A stretch of 26,300 nt of DNA from IMG/VR virus record IMGVR_UViG_3300017717_000062, positions 1 to 26,300 of that record. The stretch is one strand, 5' to 3'. The position numbers and the translations under genes were made by a program. Of this stretch, positions 2,719-11,265 are shown piece after piece. Position 1 is the stretch's first letter. Each line of letters begins with the position of its first letter. A model generated the notes under the pieces. The model was not told where the DNA came from. It worked only from the letters and a program-made list of their open reading frames with translations, and did no database searches. This stretch comes from a virus.

Positions 2719-5700
2719 TTATTCTCCTTTAAAAATTATATCATTTTTTTCTTTAAGTTCATCTATTTGTTTTTGTTGTTCTTTTATAGCTTCAACAAGT
2801 AAAGGTATTAATTTTTCATATTGAAGTCCTTTGAATCCGTCTTGTCTTGTTTTTACTATCTCTGGTAAAACTTCTTCAACTTCTTGTGCAACTAATCCAA
2901 TATCTTTTTTGCCTTCTGCATAAGCAGACTGTTTACTATTCCACTCAAAACTATATCCAGAAAGTTTAGAAAGTTTTTCCAATGGATTTGATATAACAGT
3001 GAGATTATCTTTTAGCCTTATATCAGAGCCTGAGTAAGCTACAATATCCGCTTCCGCTCTAAGATTACCAGTACTGTCAATACCTACAACATTATTAGTA
3101 TTATTTCTGAATACAAATCCACGGTTTGTTCCCGCAGTCATTTTAAAGTACATATTGTAGTCAGAAGTAGTTTCTCCGTCTACTCTTCCGTACGAACCAC
3201 TTGTTCCCATAAAAATTGCATAAGAACCATTTCCTACTGTACCAGTTCCACCCCAGAATCCAATTCCTTGACCGTTACCAGCTTCTATTGTTAAATTTCG
3301 TGCAGCTACTGCTTTATTTTGTGAAGCCCAAGTATAGCCGTCAAGATTATCAGCGTCTAAGCCAGAGCCTGAGCCATCGTTGCCATCATGCCATACCTTT
3401 CTCCAAGTTGGATAAGCACCTTCATTACTATTATAAGTAAACCACATATTACTATTATCATATGCAGTAAGAAGTGAAGAGTATCCTGTTCCTGTGTCTC
3501 TTCTACTTGTGATGTTATACCCAAAGTATGACTGACCATGACTTGAAGGTAATCCTGAAGAGGTACTTGCTTTTACCATTGTTTGGTAGCCAGAAGGCTG
3601 TGACCAAAGAGTTGTACTATTTAAGGTTGTTAAAGAATGTGCATCTAAACCCAATCTAGTTGTACTGCTTGTTACATATGCAGCACCATTTGTTAATTGG
3701 TTATTGTTTGTAGGTATTGTTGGTTTATTTTCTAAAGAATTATAATTAATATGACTTGCTATTTGATCGCCAAAGTTTGCAAGAGTGTAATAGCGAAGAT
3801 ATGCATCATCAGAAGCATATACTCTTGTAATTGTTTCAGTTGTTCTTGCTCCAGAAGTAGTATTAATCCAACCAGTCTGGATATATCCATTACTATCTGT
3901 TCTTACAACTTTATTTACTTCGTTGTTTCTTCCAGTATGTAGTTGTAGTCCATCTAGCAAGTCTGCGTCTAATCCTGAGCCCGAGCCATCATTTCCTGCA
4001 TGCCACATGGTATTACCGTTAGCATATATACCCGTTCTATTAAAGTAGAACCCACCAGATATATTAGTATAGATATGAGCATAAGATGTATTCATTGGTC
4101 CTAGCTGAATATATCCATGTTGTGTATTAAATTGAGCGTAAGTTTGCCCCGAAAATTGTAAATGACCTGAAGTATCCGCATAAAAACCTGATTTATTATT
4201 GTAACTATTACCTGAGTATAAAGAATAGAATCCATTGTTCTCACCTGCGAAAAATGCACCATCTACAAGAATAGACATCTGAGCATTATTTGGATGATCT
4301 CTTATAAATGCAATTTCTCCGCCATTTACTCCAAGTCCGCTATGCCTAGAACCACTAAAGTTCGAACCCATCCAACTTCCGCCTGATGGTACATAGTTAG
4401 CTCCAGAAGCAGGAGCATAGTAAGAACCCTGTTGTCCATCAAGAAGATCAGCATCTAGTCCTGAGCCAGAACCATCGTTAGCAGAATCCCACAAGTTAGC
4501 CCATGCTCTGTAAGTAGTATTCCAACCAGTACGATAGGCAAGACCACCATTCCCACTCGAAGCTTGTTCTGAAGCATAAAGTTGAAACTTAGCTTGTCCT
4601 GATTTAGAAAAACTAAGAGCCGTACCATAAGTATAATATCCTACGGGTCTATTAGAACCGCTATGATTTAAGACCGTATTCCAACTAGCCTCTGTCCCAT
4701 CAATAAATGTATTCCAATCTGCACTAGAAATGTCTGATCCTTGGTGAAGAATTGTGGTATTTGCTGGCTCATAATAAGAACCATGTTGTCCATCAAGTGT
4801 ATCAGCATCTAATCCAGAGCCTGATCCGTCATTACCTGCTGACCAAACTTTAACTAAACCACTGCCTTCATCAATTTGTAATTGACCATTTGTCGTTTTC
4901 TTAATATCCCAGCTAGCCCAGTTTCCGTCTAGGAAACCATAATTACTGCCGTCTCCATATATTTGCCATCTAAACTGACTACCACTATTTTGTCCCAAAA
5001 GACCCATTGTCCCAGTAGTTCCTGATTTGAATAAAATATTGTTTGTATTATTTGTAGTTAATACATGGTTATTGCTGGTAAACTTTAGTAATCCTCCTGT
5101 AGTTTGTATGTCAGAAGATACAGTAATCGTAGACCCTAGTGAAAAATTGTTTGCACCAGCTGCTATACCATCAAGTTTAGTTCCGTCTGCTGCTACATCT
5201 CTTCCATCTACTGTTCCTGATAAAGTAAAGTTACCGCTTCCATCTATTCTTGCAACTTGTCCTGCATTGGCATTACCAAAATAAGTTCCTGCTGTAGATG
5301 CTGCTGATTGTGAGCCGTACCAGTTTAGATATATTCCATTTCCATTGTCTGCATCAATATGTAGATTACCATTTGAGCAGCTAAGTTCTGCTCGTTTATT
5401 GGCTGTAGAACCGTTTAAATATAAAACACCGCTGTCAGTAGTAGTAAGAACTCCGACCTCAACATCCCCATCAAATCGAGAATTACCATAAACTTCAAAT
5501 TTTTGAGTGTTATTAAGATAAGGACCAAATCTTGCAATAGCAGTATAACTGTTTGCTGTGCCTTCAGAGATATCTAGAAATAATGGAAGACCCCCATTAA
5601 GATCTTGTTTTCTGAACCTGTGTCGATATTGACCTGTTACATAGTTACCATCGAACATCAAACCTTCAGTAGTATTGCTTGCCGCAACACTTCCTGTTAT

Positions 5701-8700
5701 TACACGAGCTTCTTCATTAAATCTTGCCTTACCATCAAAAATAACCGTTGGTGCTCTAAAATAGAAATTACCATCAGTATATGGCAGCCAGTTGTCTCCT
5801 GAGCTATGTCCATTACTTAATATAGCTCCTGAAAATGTTAAAGCACCTGTTGCTGAGTCAGTAGCATCACTTCTTAAAAAGGATCCGCTATTAACACCAT
5901 CTAATGTGTCAGCGTCTAGTCCCGATCCACTACCGTCATTGCCAGAACCCCATACAGTTCCTATGTTGGTATTTATTGTTGTTCTTTGTGATTCTCCAGC
6001 TCCTATTACTTGAAAATTCTTTCCTGACTGAAGTGTGTGTACTCTAAAGTGTCCTTGATAATTGTCTAAAGCAAATGATGAGCCACCACCTGTTGGAGCC
6101 CCAAAGTTTATTTCTCCACCTTCATTAGCACTTGTTCCTCCCAGAGTAGGAGTAGCAGCAAATGTAATTCCGCCTGTGGCAGTATCTGCTGCATCACTTC
6201 TTAAAAAGGATCCGCTATTAACACCATCAAGTAGATCGGCATCTAGACCTGAACCAGACCCATCGTTGCCTCCATGCCAAGCAGTGTTACCTTGAATTGT
6301 TGTAGCATAGTTAAGAGCAATTCCTGATACAGCATTATTGGTACTATTTGTGGTAATTTGAAATGGATATCCGCCTGTGTTGTTTAATCTTATTGAATAG
6401 TTTCCACCATCTGCTACATGCCACCATGTTGGGCTATTGGTAACATCAGTTTCTTGTAGTTTAATAATAGCGTTGCCACCAGATAAGACTATAGGATTTG
6501 GTAAACGAGCAGTGTTTATTGTTCCTGCATTTATATTTGAAGCGTTTCTGTAATATGATCCGTGTTGTCCATCTAAAAGATCAGCATCAAGACCAGAACT
6601 TGCACCGTCATTTCCAGCATGCCAAACTGCATTACCATTCACATAAGCAATATTTTGAGATATTTTAAAATCAGGAGTACCAGTCATTAAATGACCTGAA
6701 ACATCAAAACTTATATTATCTGGGCTGCCTTCGTAGTAGCCAATACCGTAGCCTGTATTACCTGCATTGTATTGCCATATAGGTAATATTGAAGAGCTAT
6801 GACCTGTTCCGTATAATCCGCTTGTAACGACTCTACCCGCAGTAATGTCTGGACTTCCTAATATTTGTCCGCCCCCGCTTAAAGTTAAATTGGCATCTAC
6901 AATTACATTGCCATTAAAATAACTAGTGCCATTATTGTAAAAATCATATGAACCATGAACAGAAGTAGCCATTACAGCAAATTTACCTGACGAATGACCA
7001 GTTGCCATACCAATATCACTTGCATTTGTAATATTCTGTGAACCCATATTAAGGACACCAGACATCGTGCCACCAGCTTTTGGTAGTTTGGTAGCTAATG
7101 CTGTTGTAAGTGTTGAGTTATAGTTTGAGTCATCGTTAATAGCTGCTGCAAGTTCGTTTAAAGTATCTAGTGTTCCAGGAGCACCGCCAATTAGAGAAGT
7201 AATTTCTTGTTGTACGAAGGCTGTATTAGCAAGTGCGGTAGTATTGGTACCTGCGGATGCAGTAGCAGTTGTAACATTTTCTAATACTCCAGCATTAGTA
7301 ATTCTTCTTGTTCCACCAACTTTAAAACTACCAACCACATTTACACTACTACTAGTTGCTGTTGAGTTAGAATCGACTAGGAATATTGTATCGCCACCAC
7401 TGTTGTAGACTCTAAAATCAGCATCGTCAAGAGCATCAAAAATAAGTGAGTTGCCCCCAAACTTAAGTCGCACAGCATTACCGCCAGCTCTTGTAAGTTT
7501 TGTACCATCATTTGTTCCATCTGCTTTTAGGAAATGTATATCTTTATCATTAGCTAATGTAATATCGCCTGCAAAGGTGGCATTTTGTGAGCTATTAAGA
7601 GTAAGAGCAGTTGTTGCATTTGTAACAAATTTCATATCGTTATTTGTTACACCTATTCTGTTAGCGTTACTTGTTGATGAATTATCTTCAAGAATTATAA
7701 AAGCATTAGCATCTGTTGATTCAAATTTAGCAACATAATCGTATGGTGTGGAAGTAACAAGAGGAAAGCTTCCAATAGAATTAGAGAATGTGCCAGTATT
7801 AGCAGTAGTTGTAAAAACACCCGCAGAGATAGTTCCAACTGTTATGTTTGGAGACCCAGACAAACCTGTTGCAGTTATGCCTAATGCGTTTATTTCGGAT
7901 TGAGTTTGGTCGGCTGTTGCCCCTGCTTCAATACCATCAAGTTTACTGTGGTCTCCACTTTCAAAAGGGACTGAAGCGGTACCATTAATTGTTAAAGCAT
8001 CTGTTTCTAATGTACCATCAACATCAACATTACCTGATATATCTAAAGAAGCTGCTATTATTTCCCCTTGGACTTGGACTTCTCCTGTTTGCTTTATTCT
8101 AAGTCTTTCTGTTGGTGTTATTGCTGTAGTGGACCCACCTGTGCCTTGAGGATTTGTGAAAAAAACTATTTCACCACTATTTCCAAATTCAATTTGTGAA
8201 GAACCCCCATAATTACCCTGAGTATAAGTGTATGCTGAAGAACCATCAGTAGTTATATTTGTATTAAAGGTTAATCGATGTGATCTTCCACCTGAGTGTA
8301 ATAATTCAAATATTTGTAATGCTCTATCGTTTGTTCCAGCACTGTCATCAATTCTTAAGGCTTCGCTTACCCCATAAGTAGAACCTGGGTTTGTATCGAT
8401 TGTTACTAAACCTGTTACGTCTATGCCTGTTGAGGTTGTGGAAAACTTTTGGTCACCATCATAGTAAAGCTCTACCGCATTATTTTTTTTGGCTTTGACC
8501 ATATTTTTATTGCCAGTAGTACCTCTTAAATATATTGCATCTCCATTAGTATCTAAATATAATCCGCCAGTACCAAGTTCTTTTATATAACTAAAAGAGC
8601 CTGTACTGTAAATTCGTAGGTCATTATTTGTACCAAACCGAGCTTCTACATTGTCTGGGAAAGTAAGACCGTTGGCATCTAGGTAGGCTTCTATCTCATC

Positions 8701-9012
8701 GGTTATAGCTACGCCTGTTTGGGAAAATAAGTTTAGGATTCCAGCGGTAAGTCTTAGTTCTGCTACATCACCGGTAGAAAATGCACGTGCGGTAGTGTCG
8801 TCCTGGGCCCTGACGACAGTAAGGGTGTTACTACTTCTAGCAGTAACTTTAACAACTTCTACATTAGTGCCATCATCAAAAGTACAAAAAAAGGTATTGC
8901 CCCCAGAAAGGGACGGTAGAGCGCTACCATCTGCGACTGTTACAGAAGTAGCCGAAGATGTTAGGCTAGATGCAAGGGTTGTTTTTGCATTGTTCTTAAA
9001 AACAACTGCCAC
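2719..9012 (-). CDS. Giant tail fibre with C-terminal peptidase S74 chaperone domain
   Basis: The 2097-residue protein should be the host-binding fibre. Residues 1-100 (VVFKNNAKTTLASSLTSSAT, then a beta-rich stretch to LTAGILNLF) resemble virion-anchoring ends of marine phage fibres. The long shaft is Asn/Gly/Ser/Thr-rich and carries seven copies of a motif of the form NDGSGSGLDADLLDG, plus two SKLDGI/TKLDGI-type variants (DHSKLDGIEAGA and DGTKLDGIAAGA). Residues 1996-2097 are a peptidase S74 intramolecular chaperone: SDIRLKDNL with the Ser1996/Lys2001 pair used for self-cleavage, then GLVAQEVEEVLPE and a C-terminal coiled coil (KLIPLLVEAIKEQQKQIDEL). The family trimerises fibres and then cuts itself off. 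The start is GTG at 9012, supported by AAGGAG 7 nt upstream. It lies 17 bp after the 141-aa gene and is followed by two small tail genes. Confidence 0.9.
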   Translation of the reverse strand: MAVVFKNNAKTTLASSLTSSATSVTVADGSALPSLSGGNTFFCTFDDGTNVEVVKVTARSSNTLTVVRAQDDTTARAFSTGDVAELRLTAGILNLFSQTGVAITDEIEAYLDANGLTFPDNVEARFGTNNDLRIYSTGSFSYIKELGTGGLYLDTNGDAIYLRGTTGNKNMVKAKKNNAVELYYDGDQKFSTTSTGIDVTGLVTIDTNPGSTYGVSEALRIDDSAGTNDRALQIFELLHSGGRSHRLTFNTNITTDGSSAYTYTQGNYGGSSQIEFGNSGEIVFFTNPQGTGGSTTAITPTERLRIKQTGEVQVQGEIIAASLDISGNVDVDGTLETDALTINGTASVPFESGDHSKLDGIEAGATADQTQSEINALGITATGLSGSPNITVGTISAGVFTTTANTGTFSNSIGSFPLVTSTPYDYVAKFESTDANAFIILEDNSSTSNANRIGVTNNDMKFVTNATTALTLNSSQNATFAGDITLANDKDIHFLKADGTNDGTKLTRAGGNAVRLKFGGNSLIFDALDDADFRVYNSGGDTIFLVDSNSTATSSSVNVVGSFKVGGTRRITNAGVLENVTTATASAGTNTTALANTAFVQQEITSLIGGAPGTLDTLNELAAAINDDSNYNSTLTTALATKLPKAGGTMSGVLNMGSQNITNASDIGMATGHSSGKFAVMATSVHGSYDFYNNGTSYFNGNVIVDANLTLSGGGQILGSPDITAGRVVTSGLYGTGHSSSILPIWQYNAGNTGYGIGYYEGSPDNISFDVSGHLMTGTPDFKISQNIAYVNGNAVWHAGNDGASSGLDADLLDGQHGSYYRNASNINAGTINTARLPNPIVLSGGNAIIKLQETDVTNSPTWWHVADGGNYSIRLNNTGGYPFQITTNSTNNAVSGIALNYATTIQGNTAWHGGNDGSGSGLDADLLDGVNSGSFLRSDAADTATGGITFAATPTLGGTSANEGGEINFGAPTGGGSSFALDNYQGHFRVHTLQSGKNFQVIGAGESQRTTINTNIGTVWGSGNDGSGSGLDADTLDGVNSGSFLRSDATDSATGALTFSGAILSNGHSSGDNWLPYTDGNFYFRAPTVIFDGKARFNEEARVITGSVAASNTTEGLMFDGNYVTGQYRHRFRKQDLNGGLPLFLDISEGTANSYTAIARFGPYLNNTQKFEVYGNSRFDGDVEVGVLTTTDSGVLYLNGSTANKRAELSCSNGNLHIDADNGNGIYLNWYGSQSAASTAGTYFGNANAGQVARIDGSGNFTLSGTVDGRDVAADGTKLDGIAAGANNFSLGSTITVSSDIQTTGGLLKFTSNNHVLTTNNTNNILFKSGTTGTMGLLGQNSGSQFRWQIYGDGSNYGFLDGNWASWDIKKTTNGQLQIDEGSGLVKVWSAGNDGSGSGLDADTLDGQHGSYYEPANTTILHQGSDISSADWNTFIDGTEASWNTVLNHSGSNRPVGYYTYGTALSFSKSGQAKFQLYASEQASSGNGGLAYRTGWNTTYRAWANLWDSANDGSGSGLDADLLDGQQGSYYAPASGANYVPSGGSWMGSNFSGSRHSGLGVNGGEIAFIRDHPNNAQMSILVDGAFFAGENNGFYSLYSGNSYNNKSGFYADTSGHLQFSGQTYAQFNTQHGYIQLGPMNTSYAHIYTNISGGFYFNRTGIYANGNTMWHAGNDGSGSGLDADLLDGLQLHTGRNNEVNKVVRTDSNGYIQTGWINTTSGARTTETITRVYASDDAYLRYYTLANFGDQIASHINYNSLENKPTIPTNNNQLTNGAAYVTSSTTRLGLDAHSLTTLNSTTLWSQPSGYQTMVKASTSSGLPSSHGQSYFGYNITSRRDTGTGYSSLLTAYDNSNMWFTYNSNEGAYPTWRKVWHDGNDGSGSGLDADNLDGYTWASQNKAVAARNLTIEAGNGQGIGFWGGTGTVGNGSYAIFMGTSGSYGRVDGETTSDYNMYFKMTAGTNRGFVFRNNTNNVVGIDSTGNLRAEADIVAYSGSDIRLKDNLTVISNPLEKLSKLSGYSFEWNSKQSAYAEGKKDIGLVAQEVEEVLPEIVKTRQDGFKGLQYEKLIPLLVEAIKEQQKQIDELKEKNDIIFKGE
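5864..5901. repeat. 38-bp exact direct repeat, copy 1
   Basis: This stretch inside the fibre gene is identical over 38 bp to 6191-6228. It encodes the GVNSGSFLRSDA part that follows two of the GLDADxLDG motifs. Identity at the DNA level, while the rest of the two modules differs, points to a recent duplication or gene conversion. Confidence 0.85.
6191..6228. repeat. 38-bp exact direct repeat, copy 2
   Basis: Second copy of the 38-bp sequence found at 5864-5901, same orientation, offset 327 bp (109 codons, so in the same reading frame). Recombination between the copies would delete one shaft module and keep the fibre frame open. Confidence 0.85.
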
Positions 9013-9029: not shown

Positions 9030-9455
9030 TTAAGAAACTGTTACAGTCCAGGTAATTGTCATTGAGTCAGACGCGCCTTTGTTTACAACTGAAAATACGG
9101 TTCTGCAAAGCATAGTACCGCTTGATGAGGCATTAAATAAGCCTGCTTCTGTTATAGCTCCTGTACCTGTTCCTGCTGGAAAAGTATCTACGTAAGTAAT
9201 ATCCGCTCCGCTAACAGTTGTAGAAGTTAAAGTAGTTCTAGCTGACTGACTTCCTAAAGCAGTATTACTAGCTGCTGCTGCAGTAGATCCTGTTCCAATA
9301 GCCATATGTGTCATTGCAGTAGTGCTAGCATCCTTCATCCTTGAGGCTACAAAACCTTTACCTGCGGTAACAACAAGGTTATCAACTTCTTTAACTGTTT
9401 CGCCATTTAAAGCGATAGCTAACTTACCTTTTAAAATTAAACCGTCGTTTATCAT
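9030..9455 (-). CDS. Fibre-associated tail protein, unknown function
   Basis: The 141-residue protein is rich in Ala, Thr and Ser. It opens with MINDGLILKGKLAIALNGE, has a central 'MAIGTGSTAAAASNTALGSQ' segment, and ends with ITEAGLFNASSSGTMLCRTVF and a beta-rich MTITWTVTVS tail. I recognise this pattern (TALG, then TEAGLFN, then a 'TITWT' strand) as a small protein commonly found beside tail fibre genes in tailed phages; its role is not clear to me. A good AGGAG lies 5 nt before the ATG, and the next gene, the giant fibre, begins 17 bp after the stop. A part in fibre attachment or baseplate structure is inferred from position. Confidence 0.75.
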   Translation of the reverse strand: MINDGLILKGKLAIALNGETVKEVDNLVVTAGKGFVASRMKDASTTAMTHMAIGTGSTAAAASNTALGSQSARTTLTSTTVSGADITYVDTFPAGTGTGAITEAGLFNASSSGTMLCRTVFSVVNKGASDSMTITWTVTVS

Positions 9456-9463
9456 AGTTTCTC

Positions 9464-10891
9464 CTAGTTTAGTGTCCCGATATTTAGTCCCGCTGCGTTA
9501 AAAACGCTATGGCTTTGAACGGTAACAATATTTATAACTTCTGATATTGTAGCACTATCTGTATGAGAATTGCCAAGAGATAGCGATAATGCTTCAGAAA
9601 CCGAAAAGATATCAGATTTACCAAGATTTGGGGATATGGCCTGTGTATCATTTAAAGTAGGGGTATCTAGTACTCCTTTAGTAAAAGCTAGTATCTCATT
9701 ATCAGTAAAACTAAAATTATCTGCGTGTATAGTAGCTACAGCTAAACTAGCCGCGTCCGTAGGACTAAATGTATCTGTTTTACCTAAACCTAGATCAAGC
9801 TCTTCTGTATCCGTTAAGGTCGATGTATCTGTTACGCCTTTAGTAAAACTTAAAATTTCTGTATCTGCAAACGTAAAACTATCGCTAAAAGGTTTTATAG
9901 CTTCTATTGCAGGTAAATCTGTAAACCCGTACGTGTCGCCTAACAGTTTAGCAAATACGTACGAATGATCGTCTGCAAATCCAATCACATTGGTTTTACC
10001 AGAATCTACGTCTGTTTGTAAAGGGTCATTGACAGAAGCAATATCATCTAAAGATACAGCATCTGTAAAAGTTCTAGAAAAACTAACTATACGGCTAAAT
10101 ACATCCCCCATACCAAAAGTATCTGTTTTACCTAACTCTGGTTGTAAAGAAGAAGCATCTGCAAACGTTATTAAATCAGTAGACAAAAGAGCATCAAAAC
10201 TAAGGGCGGGTGTATCTGTAAAACTAAAAGCATCTGTTTTGTTTACACCAAAACTAGCAACTTGGGTGTCAGTTAAGGTGGGGGTATCTAATACCCCTTT
10301 GTTAACATCCCTAAAGTCAGTATCTGCAAAGTTAAAAGTGTCTGCATAGAGGTTATTTAAACTAAGGCTAGGAGCATCTGCGAAACTAAAAGAGTCTGAG
10401 TATGAGGGTTGTACGGATAAAGATGTTGTATCTGTAAAGGCAAAAGTATCACTAAACTCACGTAGGAACGTTATTAAGATGGCTACAACTTCTCCAAAGG
10501 CTAAAGAATCGTTAAGAGTTTTACCTACAAATAATTCTGGTACATCTTGTATGATGGGTGTATCAATTAAAGACTTACCTACTTCTAGTGCTGTGTCCTC
10601 TAACATTGTAAGAGTTACAACATTGGGTGAGTTGTTTTGCGGTATGAAATATAAATTCTTACTATCAGCATCTAACAGTACATCTACTGCAGATAAATTT
10701 ACATAACTAACTAAAGAGTTAAGGTTAACGTATTCAACTATTGTTTGTAATAATTGGCTGTGTATAGAGGTTTTAGGAGAAGTAAAGTTAAGACTAGTGC
10801 GGGTATCAGCTTGCGATACTACTATCTTAAGCTCAGAAAAAGAGACGGACGCTTTTAGATCTACATAACTAAGTTTTGCACGAAAGGCCAT
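9464..10891 (-). CDS. Tail-region protein of tandem 18-residue repeats
   Basis: The 475-residue product has an N-terminal part (1-100) of beta-rich sequence without clear relatives. A repeat array follows at residues about 101-454, then a 21-residue end. Each unit is about 18 residues with the consensus L-x3-K-x2-TDTFSFTDTxx; examples are VNKTDAFSFTDTPALSF and LGKTDTFSPTDAASLAV. Some units replace F by P/T/L (GVLDTPTLTDTQ). No Cys is visible, and there is no membrane segment. Regular 'D-[TS]-F-x-F-x-D' spacing suggests one beta-turn or coil per repeat, possibly with Asp-bound calcium, forming a fibre or solenoid; that is inference. Its ATG overlaps the stop of the upstream Ig-like gene by one base (TAATG at 10893-10889), so the two are translationally coupled. 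Probable tail or adsorption structure. Confidence 0.75.
   Translation of the reverse strand: MAFRAKLSYVDLKASVSFSELKIVVSQADTRTSLNFTSPKTSIHSQLLQTIVEYVNLNSLVSYVNLSAVDVLLDADSKNLYFIPQNNSPNVVTLTMLEDTALEVGKSLIDTPIIQDVPELFVGKTLNDSLAFGEVVAILITFLREFSDTFAFTDTTSLSVQPSYSDSFSFADAPSLSLNNLYADTFNFADTDFRDVNKGVLDTPTLTDTQVASFGVNKTDAFSFTDTPALSFDALLSTDLITFADASSLQPELGKTDTFGMGDVFSRIVSFSRTFTDAVSLDDIASVNDPLQTDVDSGKTNVIGFADDHSYVFAKLLGDTYGFTDLPAIEAIKPFSDSFTFADTEILSFTKGVTDTSTLTDTEELDLGLGKTDTFSPTDAASLAVATIHADNFSFTDNEILAFTKGVLDTPTLNDTQAISPNLGKSDIFSVSEALSLSLGNSHTDSATISEVINIVTVQSHSVFNAAGLNIGTLN
9530..10591 (-). repeat. Array of about nineteen 18-residue coding repeats
   Basis: By hand alignment I count about nineteen units of 18 residues (a few of 19, one longer with an insert near residues 300-320). 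They are diverged at the DNA level, so this is an old, selected repeat rather than a fresh expansion. Two units are closely alike (GVLDTPTLTDTQ and GVLDTPTLNDTQ), as are two others (SFTKGVTDTSTLTDTE and AFTKGVLDTPTLNDTQ). Confidence 0.8.
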
Positions 10892-11265
10892 TAATCAAAA
10901 TCTTCACGTACCTTAAATTTTACTAGGTCTTGCACTGTCTGTATTTGGCCGTTTGACTTAGTAAACTCTAATTCACCTTCGTACGTACCAGCTGCGGTCC
11001 AAGTTCCCGTAGGGAAAGTTAAGGCACATATGCCTGCGCTAGCATTTGTAATGGTAGCGGTAATTGTTTTTAGTACTGTAGTTTGTCCTACCTCTCTAAT
11101 ACGAAACTTAACGCTGCCGCTTGATAGATCAATAGCAGCCCAAGTTGCATCGTTTTCAACGTCTAAAGTTTGCCCAGAAGCAGCCGTATTGCTATCTTTT
11201 AATGTAAAAGTTAGCTCAGGGAGTGTGTCTCCTACTACTAATTTTATTGTATCTGAATATGCCAT
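10891..11265 (-). CDS. BppU N-terminal-like (Ig-fold) baseplate/tail protein
   Basis: The 124-residue protein reads as a single beta-sandwich: a first part VGDTLPELTFTLKDSNTAA, a middle DLSSGSVKFRIREVGQTTVL, and a last part TWTAAGTYEGELEFTKSNGQ ending in VKFKVREDFD. The order 'GDT.P.L...L.D', 'DL....V.F.I', 'G.Y..E.......G...T' matches what I know of the BppU N-terminal domain family of receptor-binding baseplate proteins, there serving to attach binding modules. Here it is a free-standing domain just upstream of, and coupled by a one-base overlap to, the 18-residue-repeat protein. It may act as that protein's attachment or chaperone partner. The start at 11265 has only a weak AGG. The assignment is moderate. 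Confidence 0.65.
   Translation of the reverse strand: MAYSDTIKLVVGDTLPELTFTLKDSNTAASGQTLDVENDATWAAIDLSSGSVKFRIREVGQTTVLKTITATITNASAGICALTFPTGTWTAAGTYEGELEFTKSNGQIQTVQDLVKFKVREDFD

Follow-up and report, generated by a model that had tools for sequence, protein, structure and literature searches.

An 18-residue acidic repeat in a conserved viral gene cassette: a candidate fibre stalk that varies in length by whole units

The repeat gene and its 18-residue unit

The window analysed here is the whole of a 26,300-nucleotide stretch of viral DNA (positions 1 to 26,300 of IMG/VR record IMGVR_UViG_3300017717_000062). On its minus strand, at 9464..10891, lies a gene for a 475-residue repeat protein, a proposed fibre stalk, with an ATG start. 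An alignment of the 40 family members that lack an inserted domain (A1) delimits a non-repetitive N-terminal part of about 90 residues (10622..10891, minus strand). This proposed docking end contains short strand-like steps (YVDLKA and VSFSEL) and an LDADSKNLYF motif. Residues 109–461 (9509..10567, minus strand) form an array of 19 in-register units of 18 residues. Within the array is an irregular unit, R-x-F-x-D-x4-LDD-...-K-x-N (residues 273–301; 9989..10075, minus strand); its stretch 277–301 constitutes a single 24-residue unit with many invariant residues, D277, D282, D283, K299 and N301 being unchanged in all 40 aligned members. The protein ends in an (F/L)N-x3-LN-x3-LN motif (residues 464–475; 9467..9502, minus strand). 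Its N465, N470 and N475 are also unchanged in 40 of 40, with the proviso that sequences collected later were chosen partly by this motif, so that invariance there adds no evidence.

The D-x5-D/E anchors of the units fall at residues 110, 128, 148, 166, 184, 202, 220, 239, 257, 277, 319, 337, 355, 373, 391, 409, 427 and 445; N301 replaces the first Asp in one further unit, for a total of 19. This register was read by hand, leaving out off-register anchor matches at 233 and 283, and its spacings are exactly 18 in 14 of 18 cases (the rest are 19, 20, 20 and 24). The initial annotation had described about nineteen 18-residue Asp-rich repeats, diverged at the DNA level, and both statements hold. 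The self-identity of the protein at a lag of 18 residues was 92, compared to 36.1 ± 5.7 in 2000 shuffles (z 9.8), with no clear repeats in the first ~100 and last ~15 residues. Tandem Repeats Finder, run on the DNA, reported no array at the repeat gene; the repeat is therefore diverged at that level.

We collected 454 distinct 18-mers from the 40 members without an insert. They yield the unit profile S/T-D-S/T-F/V/A-S/T-hydrophobic-S/T-D/E-x-L/P-A/S-L/V/I-x-V/F-x-L/K-x-K/L. Because the collecting pattern fixes D/E at positions 2 and 8 and limits position 6, only the other positions constitute independent evidence; among these, 4, 12 and 14 show a hydrophobic preference, with a strand-like alternation. 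In 933 in-phase units, the distance from D2 to D8 was 6 in 860, 7 in 27 and 5 in 4, the second acid being absent in the remaining 42. The spacing between units was looser across the family: 18 in 858 cases, 20 in 227, 19 in 94 and 17 in 12, with others rare, in a count that took the neighbour nearest 18 within 16–24 and so favours 18. A fixed D2–D8 distance combined with a variable unit spacing fits a predicted arrangement in which a fixed turn connects two strands and consecutive units are linked by a looser loop. The acidic positions are putative calcium ligands, or they could form pairs with the basic residue often present at position 18. The protein as a whole is rich in Ser, Thr and Asp and contains neither Cys nor Trp.

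It had been suggested that no named family has this repeat. For Pfam this is correct, as no model matched the repeat protein up to E 1. For PHROGs it is nearly so: only phrog_12240 (E 0.001, function label unknown) and phrog_23049 (E 0.48) were matched, the former by 2 of 40 family members at E 0.001. NCBIfam returned only a serine-rich model, at 15.5 bits against a cut-off of 650. A search of PDB sequences with the repeat profile gave nothing up to E 1, and tblastn of the window protein against 50,697 phage records gave nothing at E 1e-3. A literature search for an 18-residue repeat and phage tail fibres found nothing, and further searches had, among the matches listed, no title on this repeat. 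One listed title on a related subject, PMC6949934, concerns BACON domain repeats in crAssphage, which are a different repeat.

A conserved cassette with a repeat gene of variable length

By its own sequence, the window repeat protein has two close relatives, both in viral contigs; of 39 aligned relatives, all share 27–38% identity with it except the six nearest. More loci were gathered through the neighbouring 124-aa Ig protein (80 loci, the best 80 of 102) and through a profile of the repeat family (79 loci, from the best 80 of 286 kept, plus one MAG contig). Combined, they represent 111 distinct DNA stretches. Of the 80 Ig-found loci (again, the best 80 of 102), 78 contain the repeat gene; in the other two (L069 and L083), the stretch ends less than 90 bases from the Ig gene. 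In the profile-found loci, both neighbour genes are present wherever the contig extends. The family set of 59 members used below omits exact duplicates, repeat proteins truncated where a contig stops and one 1713-aa relative (L082:8375-13516). This last protein has a super-period of 133 residues, and we take its N-terminal part to resemble cohesin and dockerin repeats; Pfam returned nothing up to E 0.1.

The order of the cassette is an Ig/BppU_N-like gene, the repeat gene, a 141-aa gene and then a gene of variable length. The coupled Ig-like gene of the initial annotation is real: in the window, its stop overlaps the start of the repeat gene by one base, and the same one-base overlap occurs in 107 of the 110 distinct stretches with room for it. 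In the remaining three (L022, L024 and L026) the Ig gene is present with one small ORF intervening. These ORFs (L022:8375-8665, L024:1507-1797 and L026:8375-8665) each encode a Lys/Arg-rich protein of 96 residues. On the other side, a 141-aa gene begins within 200 bases after the repeat gene in 96 of 96 stretches with room. The repeat gene thus sits between the tail/ejection genes and the long fibre, among conserved neighbours. Roles in the capsid or as a tape measure were set aside on this gene order.

The 124-aa Ig-like/BppU_N-like protein (10891..11265, minus strand), a proposed tail anchor, matches PF10651 at E 2.6e-5, its 24.4 bits exceeding the gathering cut-off of 23.1. This model, BppU_N, was matched by 34 of 39 Ig family members at E 0.01. 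Against the PDB, the family profile had weak matches only, including T5 p132 at E 0.15. The 141-aa fibre-base-like protein (9030..9455, minus strand), a proposed coupler to the distal fibre, matches phrog_5417 (E 3.9e-30). Its score against PF23140 (Gp80) was 17.9 bits, under the 27-bit gathering cut-off; across the family, 27 of 36 members matched PF23140 at E 0.01 (best 0.00051), and three of 36 matched the N-terminal tail-collar fibre model PF12571 at the same threshold. The 141-like protein of phage phiA008 exceeds the PF12571 cut-off. The 141-aa profile also matched the HFTV1 baseplate hub (E 5e-9 over the chain, with 5.7e-5 as the best single stretch), and matched chain 8jou_a of phage GP4 at only E 0.19. 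Last comes a 2097-aa protein (2719..9012, minus strand), the proposed distal fibre, with a C-terminal S74 chaperone domain (PF13884, E 6.5e-14).

Elsewhere in the window, the capsid protein is closest to those of Pseudomonas phages such as phiR18 and KPP25, at 53%. A 388-aa protein is encoded at 1261-2427, for which Pfam gave only a sub-threshold AXH match (20.2 vs. 33 bits); we take its stretch CIHEDMLVSTQKG to be Hint/intein-like.

The length of the repeat gene shifts in 18-residue steps. Measured from the LDD anchor to the C-terminus, lengths cluster near 114, 132, 150, 187, 205 and 221 residues, and a circular statistic on this segment reaches its maximum at a period of 18.0 (R 0.84, 71 sequences). 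Over the 18 distinct lengths, the same period gave R 0.68, a value reached by only 2 of 20,000 random sets. We also compared close pairs, defined by an Ig identity of at least 0.80 and lengths more than 6 apart; these pairs share sequences and are not independent. In 75 of 118 pairs the length difference was at most 2 residues away from a multiple of 18; in 43 it was farther off, including 16 pairs that were 5 off and eight that were 7 off. The window itself provides a clear case: its Ig protein and that of locus L006 share 93% identity, yet their repeat proteins are 144 residues apart in length, which is eight units exactly. Phage fibres differ in reach, and the rapid divergence of their shafts obscures how this property evolves; here a single short unit, a constant cassette and almost identical neighbours with differing copy numbers open the question to direct testing.

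Some family members also carry whole inserted domains. We counted 22 in 19 of the 59 members, one or two each, by a looser motif and a profile that agree; a stricter motif counted 17 proteins. The window protein has none. In the 15 of 22 inserts that were aligned (A5), H51, C102, H105 and M108 are invariant, the C, H and M having belonged to the motif that found the inserts. When the insert profile was run over the family, no member had the domain without the motif. These four residues correspond to the ligand set of amicyanin-like type 1 copper sites. PF00127 (Copper-bind) matched 8 of 15 inserts at E 0.1 (best 0.0029), scoring 16.7 bits on the member shown, under its cut-off of 21.2; no PDB chain matched the inserts at E 0.1. 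The inserts in these 19 members are, as judged from such residues and matches, cupredoxin-like with putative copper binding. In 12 of 19 proteins the insert starts 21 residues past the last D2; for the others, visual inspection places its start close to a unit boundary. One example within the repeat array lies at L036:9035-9397; 18 other members carry inserts. Such domains are unexpected in what is probably a part of the virion, and a literature search combining cupredoxin, phage tail fibre and marine found nothing.

The unit in tail proteins of cultured phages

A weight matrix built from the marine repeats was applied to proteins of cultured phages. Five of these contain 2–4 units in the C-terminal third of a tail protein: gp17 of Burkholderia phage BcepGomr (chain z 13.1; residues 261–335 of 372), Simon (8.2; 340–375 of 434), 83-24 (5.7; 267–322 of 358), ART (5.7; 231–304 of 341) and AMA1 (4.1; 266–319 of 355). 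With fewer shuffles, Simon gave z 6.2 (39.7 vs. a null maximum of 29.4). In BcepGomr, 83-24, AMA1 and ART, the unit-bearing gene lies between the tape measure and a 141-like gene, immediately adjoining the latter; in Simon, an unannotated sewage phage, it likewise immediately precedes a 141-like gene. A fibre gene follows the 141-like gene in Achromobacter phages 83-24 (S74 and collar domains noted) and in ART (“tail fiber protein”). Five 141-like proteins, used as controls, had z from -2.0 to 0.6. Unrelated ORFs in the same stretches, two tape measures for example, reached 2.9–3.0, and values below about 3 must therefore be treated as background. This applies to phiA008 (2.4, one unit), EBPR gp36 (2.7) and CF418P1 (3.0, two units). 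In phiAxp-1 (z 0.2) the unit test fails.

The A1 profile was searched against the ORFs of 13 cultured-phage stretches. It gave six matches up to E 1, and each of the six is encoded immediately before a 141-like gene (E 7e-9 to 1.4e-3, the latter being EBPR gp36); in 5 of 11 cultured stretches nothing upstream of the 141-like gene matched. The L170 stretch does not extend to the 141-like gene. The gene order of the cassette (Ig-like, middle, 141-like) recurs in Aeromonas phage phiA008 and Achromobacter phage CF418P1. The middle protein of phiA008 (296 aa) matches the family profile at E 8e-5 and has an 18-residue spacing by eye; that of CF418P1 (177 aa) has no family-profile match.

In PHROGs, five of nine proteins scanned matched phrog_384 (“virion structural protein”): four with z of at least 5.7, and phiAxp-1 with 0.2. 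AMA1 (z 4.1) was not part of that scan, and the window repeat protein does not match phrog_384. BcepGomr gp17, like the repeat profile, has no match among PDB sequences. The link to cultured phages provides an annotation handle on a family without a Pfam match. In the archaeal provirus Pro-Nvie1 (L173:6393-6770), a 125-aa protein just after a 141-like gene maybe has two units (z 3.1, or 4.0 with the longer ORF).

A proposed fibre stalk and its counterparts

We propose, with a probability of roughly 60%, that the repeat protein is the stalk of a receptor-binding fibre and that its copy number sets the reach of that fibre. This reading is supported by the constant cassette, the BppU_N match of the partner and the weak Gp80 and tail-collar-fibre matches of the next gene. 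The initial annotation had listed a second fibre, a tail spike stem and a length-setting protein as candidate roles. The evidence above favours a fibre or stalk, and nothing points to length-setting of the tape-measure type; the term could mean only the length of the stalk itself. In the virion, the 124-aa protein would dock on the short tail, the repeat protein would form an extended, beta-rich shaft as the proximal stalk, and the 141-aa protein would cap this shaft and couple it to the 2097-aa S74 fibre, assembly presumably keeping this order. Each unit would contribute two short strands (approximately positions 3–7 and 11–16) with a fixed turn after D8, and the looser loop before D2 would join successive units. 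Gain or loss of entire units would change how far the fibre reaches and leave it intact, and complete domains could be spliced in at a unit boundary.

AlphaFold2 models of the monomer had pLDDT values of 33.8 (full-length) and 48.0 (C-terminal part), and a fold assignment from either was dropped as the confidence was too poor. The low-confidence C-terminal model has two strands per 18 residues in the last five units, near unit positions 3–7 and 11–16. Foldseek gave six matches to it, all with E of at least 5.5, in a search weakened by the poor model. The failure of the monomer models would fit an obligate oligomer, and would fit disorder too. Given this failure, and since phage fibres are commonly oligomeric, we regard an intertwined homo-oligomer as the probable form of the shaft; the simplest version would be a trimer, as in many such fibres.

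Could a monomer form the rod instead? It had been suggested that the Phe residues stack in a solenoid. In such a beta-solenoid, each unit would be one coil with Phe and Leu stacked inside and Asp ladders perhaps binding calcium. Indeed, a coil takes 18 residues in an RTX-type roll and in a left-handed beta-helix, the acidic residues hold fixed unit positions, and the low-confidence model has its two strands per unit. However, regular solenoids are usually well modelled as monomers and both models of this protein failed, with nothing better than E 5.5 from the weakened structural search. Moreover, the hallmark of the RTX beta-roll, the GGxGxDxUx nonapeptide, is absent from the unit profile, down to its GGxGxD core, and Pfam had no match up to E 1. 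The stacked-Phe proposal is thus unsupported, and we regard a solenoid as unlikely. Somewhat less probable still is a mostly disordered, flexible tether linking the anchor to the fibre, in which the repeats only keep composition and length. The Ser/Thr/Asp-rich composition free of Cys and Trp, the low pLDDT and the insertion of whole domains are what such a tether would show; they are countered by the hydrophobic positions 4, 12 and 14 with their alternation in 454 distinct units, by the fixed D2–D8 spacing and by the invariant residues of the irregular unit and the C-terminus. According to the initial annotation, predicted disorder combined with loss of the repeat phase among relatives would have refuted its reading. 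That combination as a whole is not what we see: relatives keep the phase and their lengths change by 18 at a time, though the AlphaFold models score poorly. A second, independent adhesin or decoy, standing beside the S74 fibre and not bearing it, would be in keeping with the fast divergence of the protein and its inserted domains. With the 141-aa gene directly next at all 96 places, and a fibre gene after its counterpart in 83-24 and ART, we consider it improbable.

The stalk reading can be taken further, to an undescribed shaft fold of 18-residue D-x5-D/E beta units that would be common to short-tailed and tape-measure-tailed phages, tuned in length unit by unit, and used as a carrier for a spliced-in cupredoxin-like domain, which would place type 1 copper sites on virion fibres. 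We find this extended version doubtful. Most likely, the protein is a part of a known kind, an adjustable tail-to-fibre stalk, built from a little-described repeat.

The closest counterparts of the proposed stalk are the phrog_384 tail proteins (BcepGomr gp17, 83-24, ART and Simon) and that of AMA1, which share 18-residue units and a position directly before a 141-like gene. These tail proteins, by contrast, have a long non-repeat N-terminal part and a gene that follows the tape measure; the window protein consists almost wholly of repeat (~19 units), with an Ig anchor encoded separately. The shafts of the adenovirus fibre and of reovirus sigma1 are triple beta-spirals with a unit of ~15 residues, arranged as strand, fixed turn, strand and looser exposed loop, and their copy number sets length. 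The spacing statistics of the window unit agree with such a fixed turn and variable loop, at the level of a predicted fold only; its 18 residues and acidic positions 2 and 8 set it apart. BppU of lactococcal phage TP901-1 docks receptor-binding proteins on the baseplate, and its anchor and stalk form one chain. The 124-aa partner matches the N-terminal domain of BppU above cut-off, whereas here separate genes encode anchor and stalk, and the latter is built from a different repeat.

The neck fibre gp80–gp82 of phage A-1(L), as described in PMC10966104, also gains its length from a repeated module. Unlike the units in one chain of the window protein, its repeats are separate trimeric gp81 beads. 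Acidovorax phage AP1 (L088:35344-36289) has an Ig-like gene (A3 profile, E 4.5e-5) followed by a gp82N-matching protein (E 2e-8), and is a case of a different fibre module on a similar anchor. Lastly, the 141-aa neighbour weakly resembles fibre I (gp80, PF23140; PDB 8JOU) of Ralstonia phage GP4. According to PMC13243795, GP4 8JOU_g is a fibril joining an adhesin to the nozzle collar, and Ig folds occur in that collar. The proposed order of anchor, stalk, coupler and S74 fibre parallels this arrangement of Ig-fold collar and collar–adhesin fibril in GP4.
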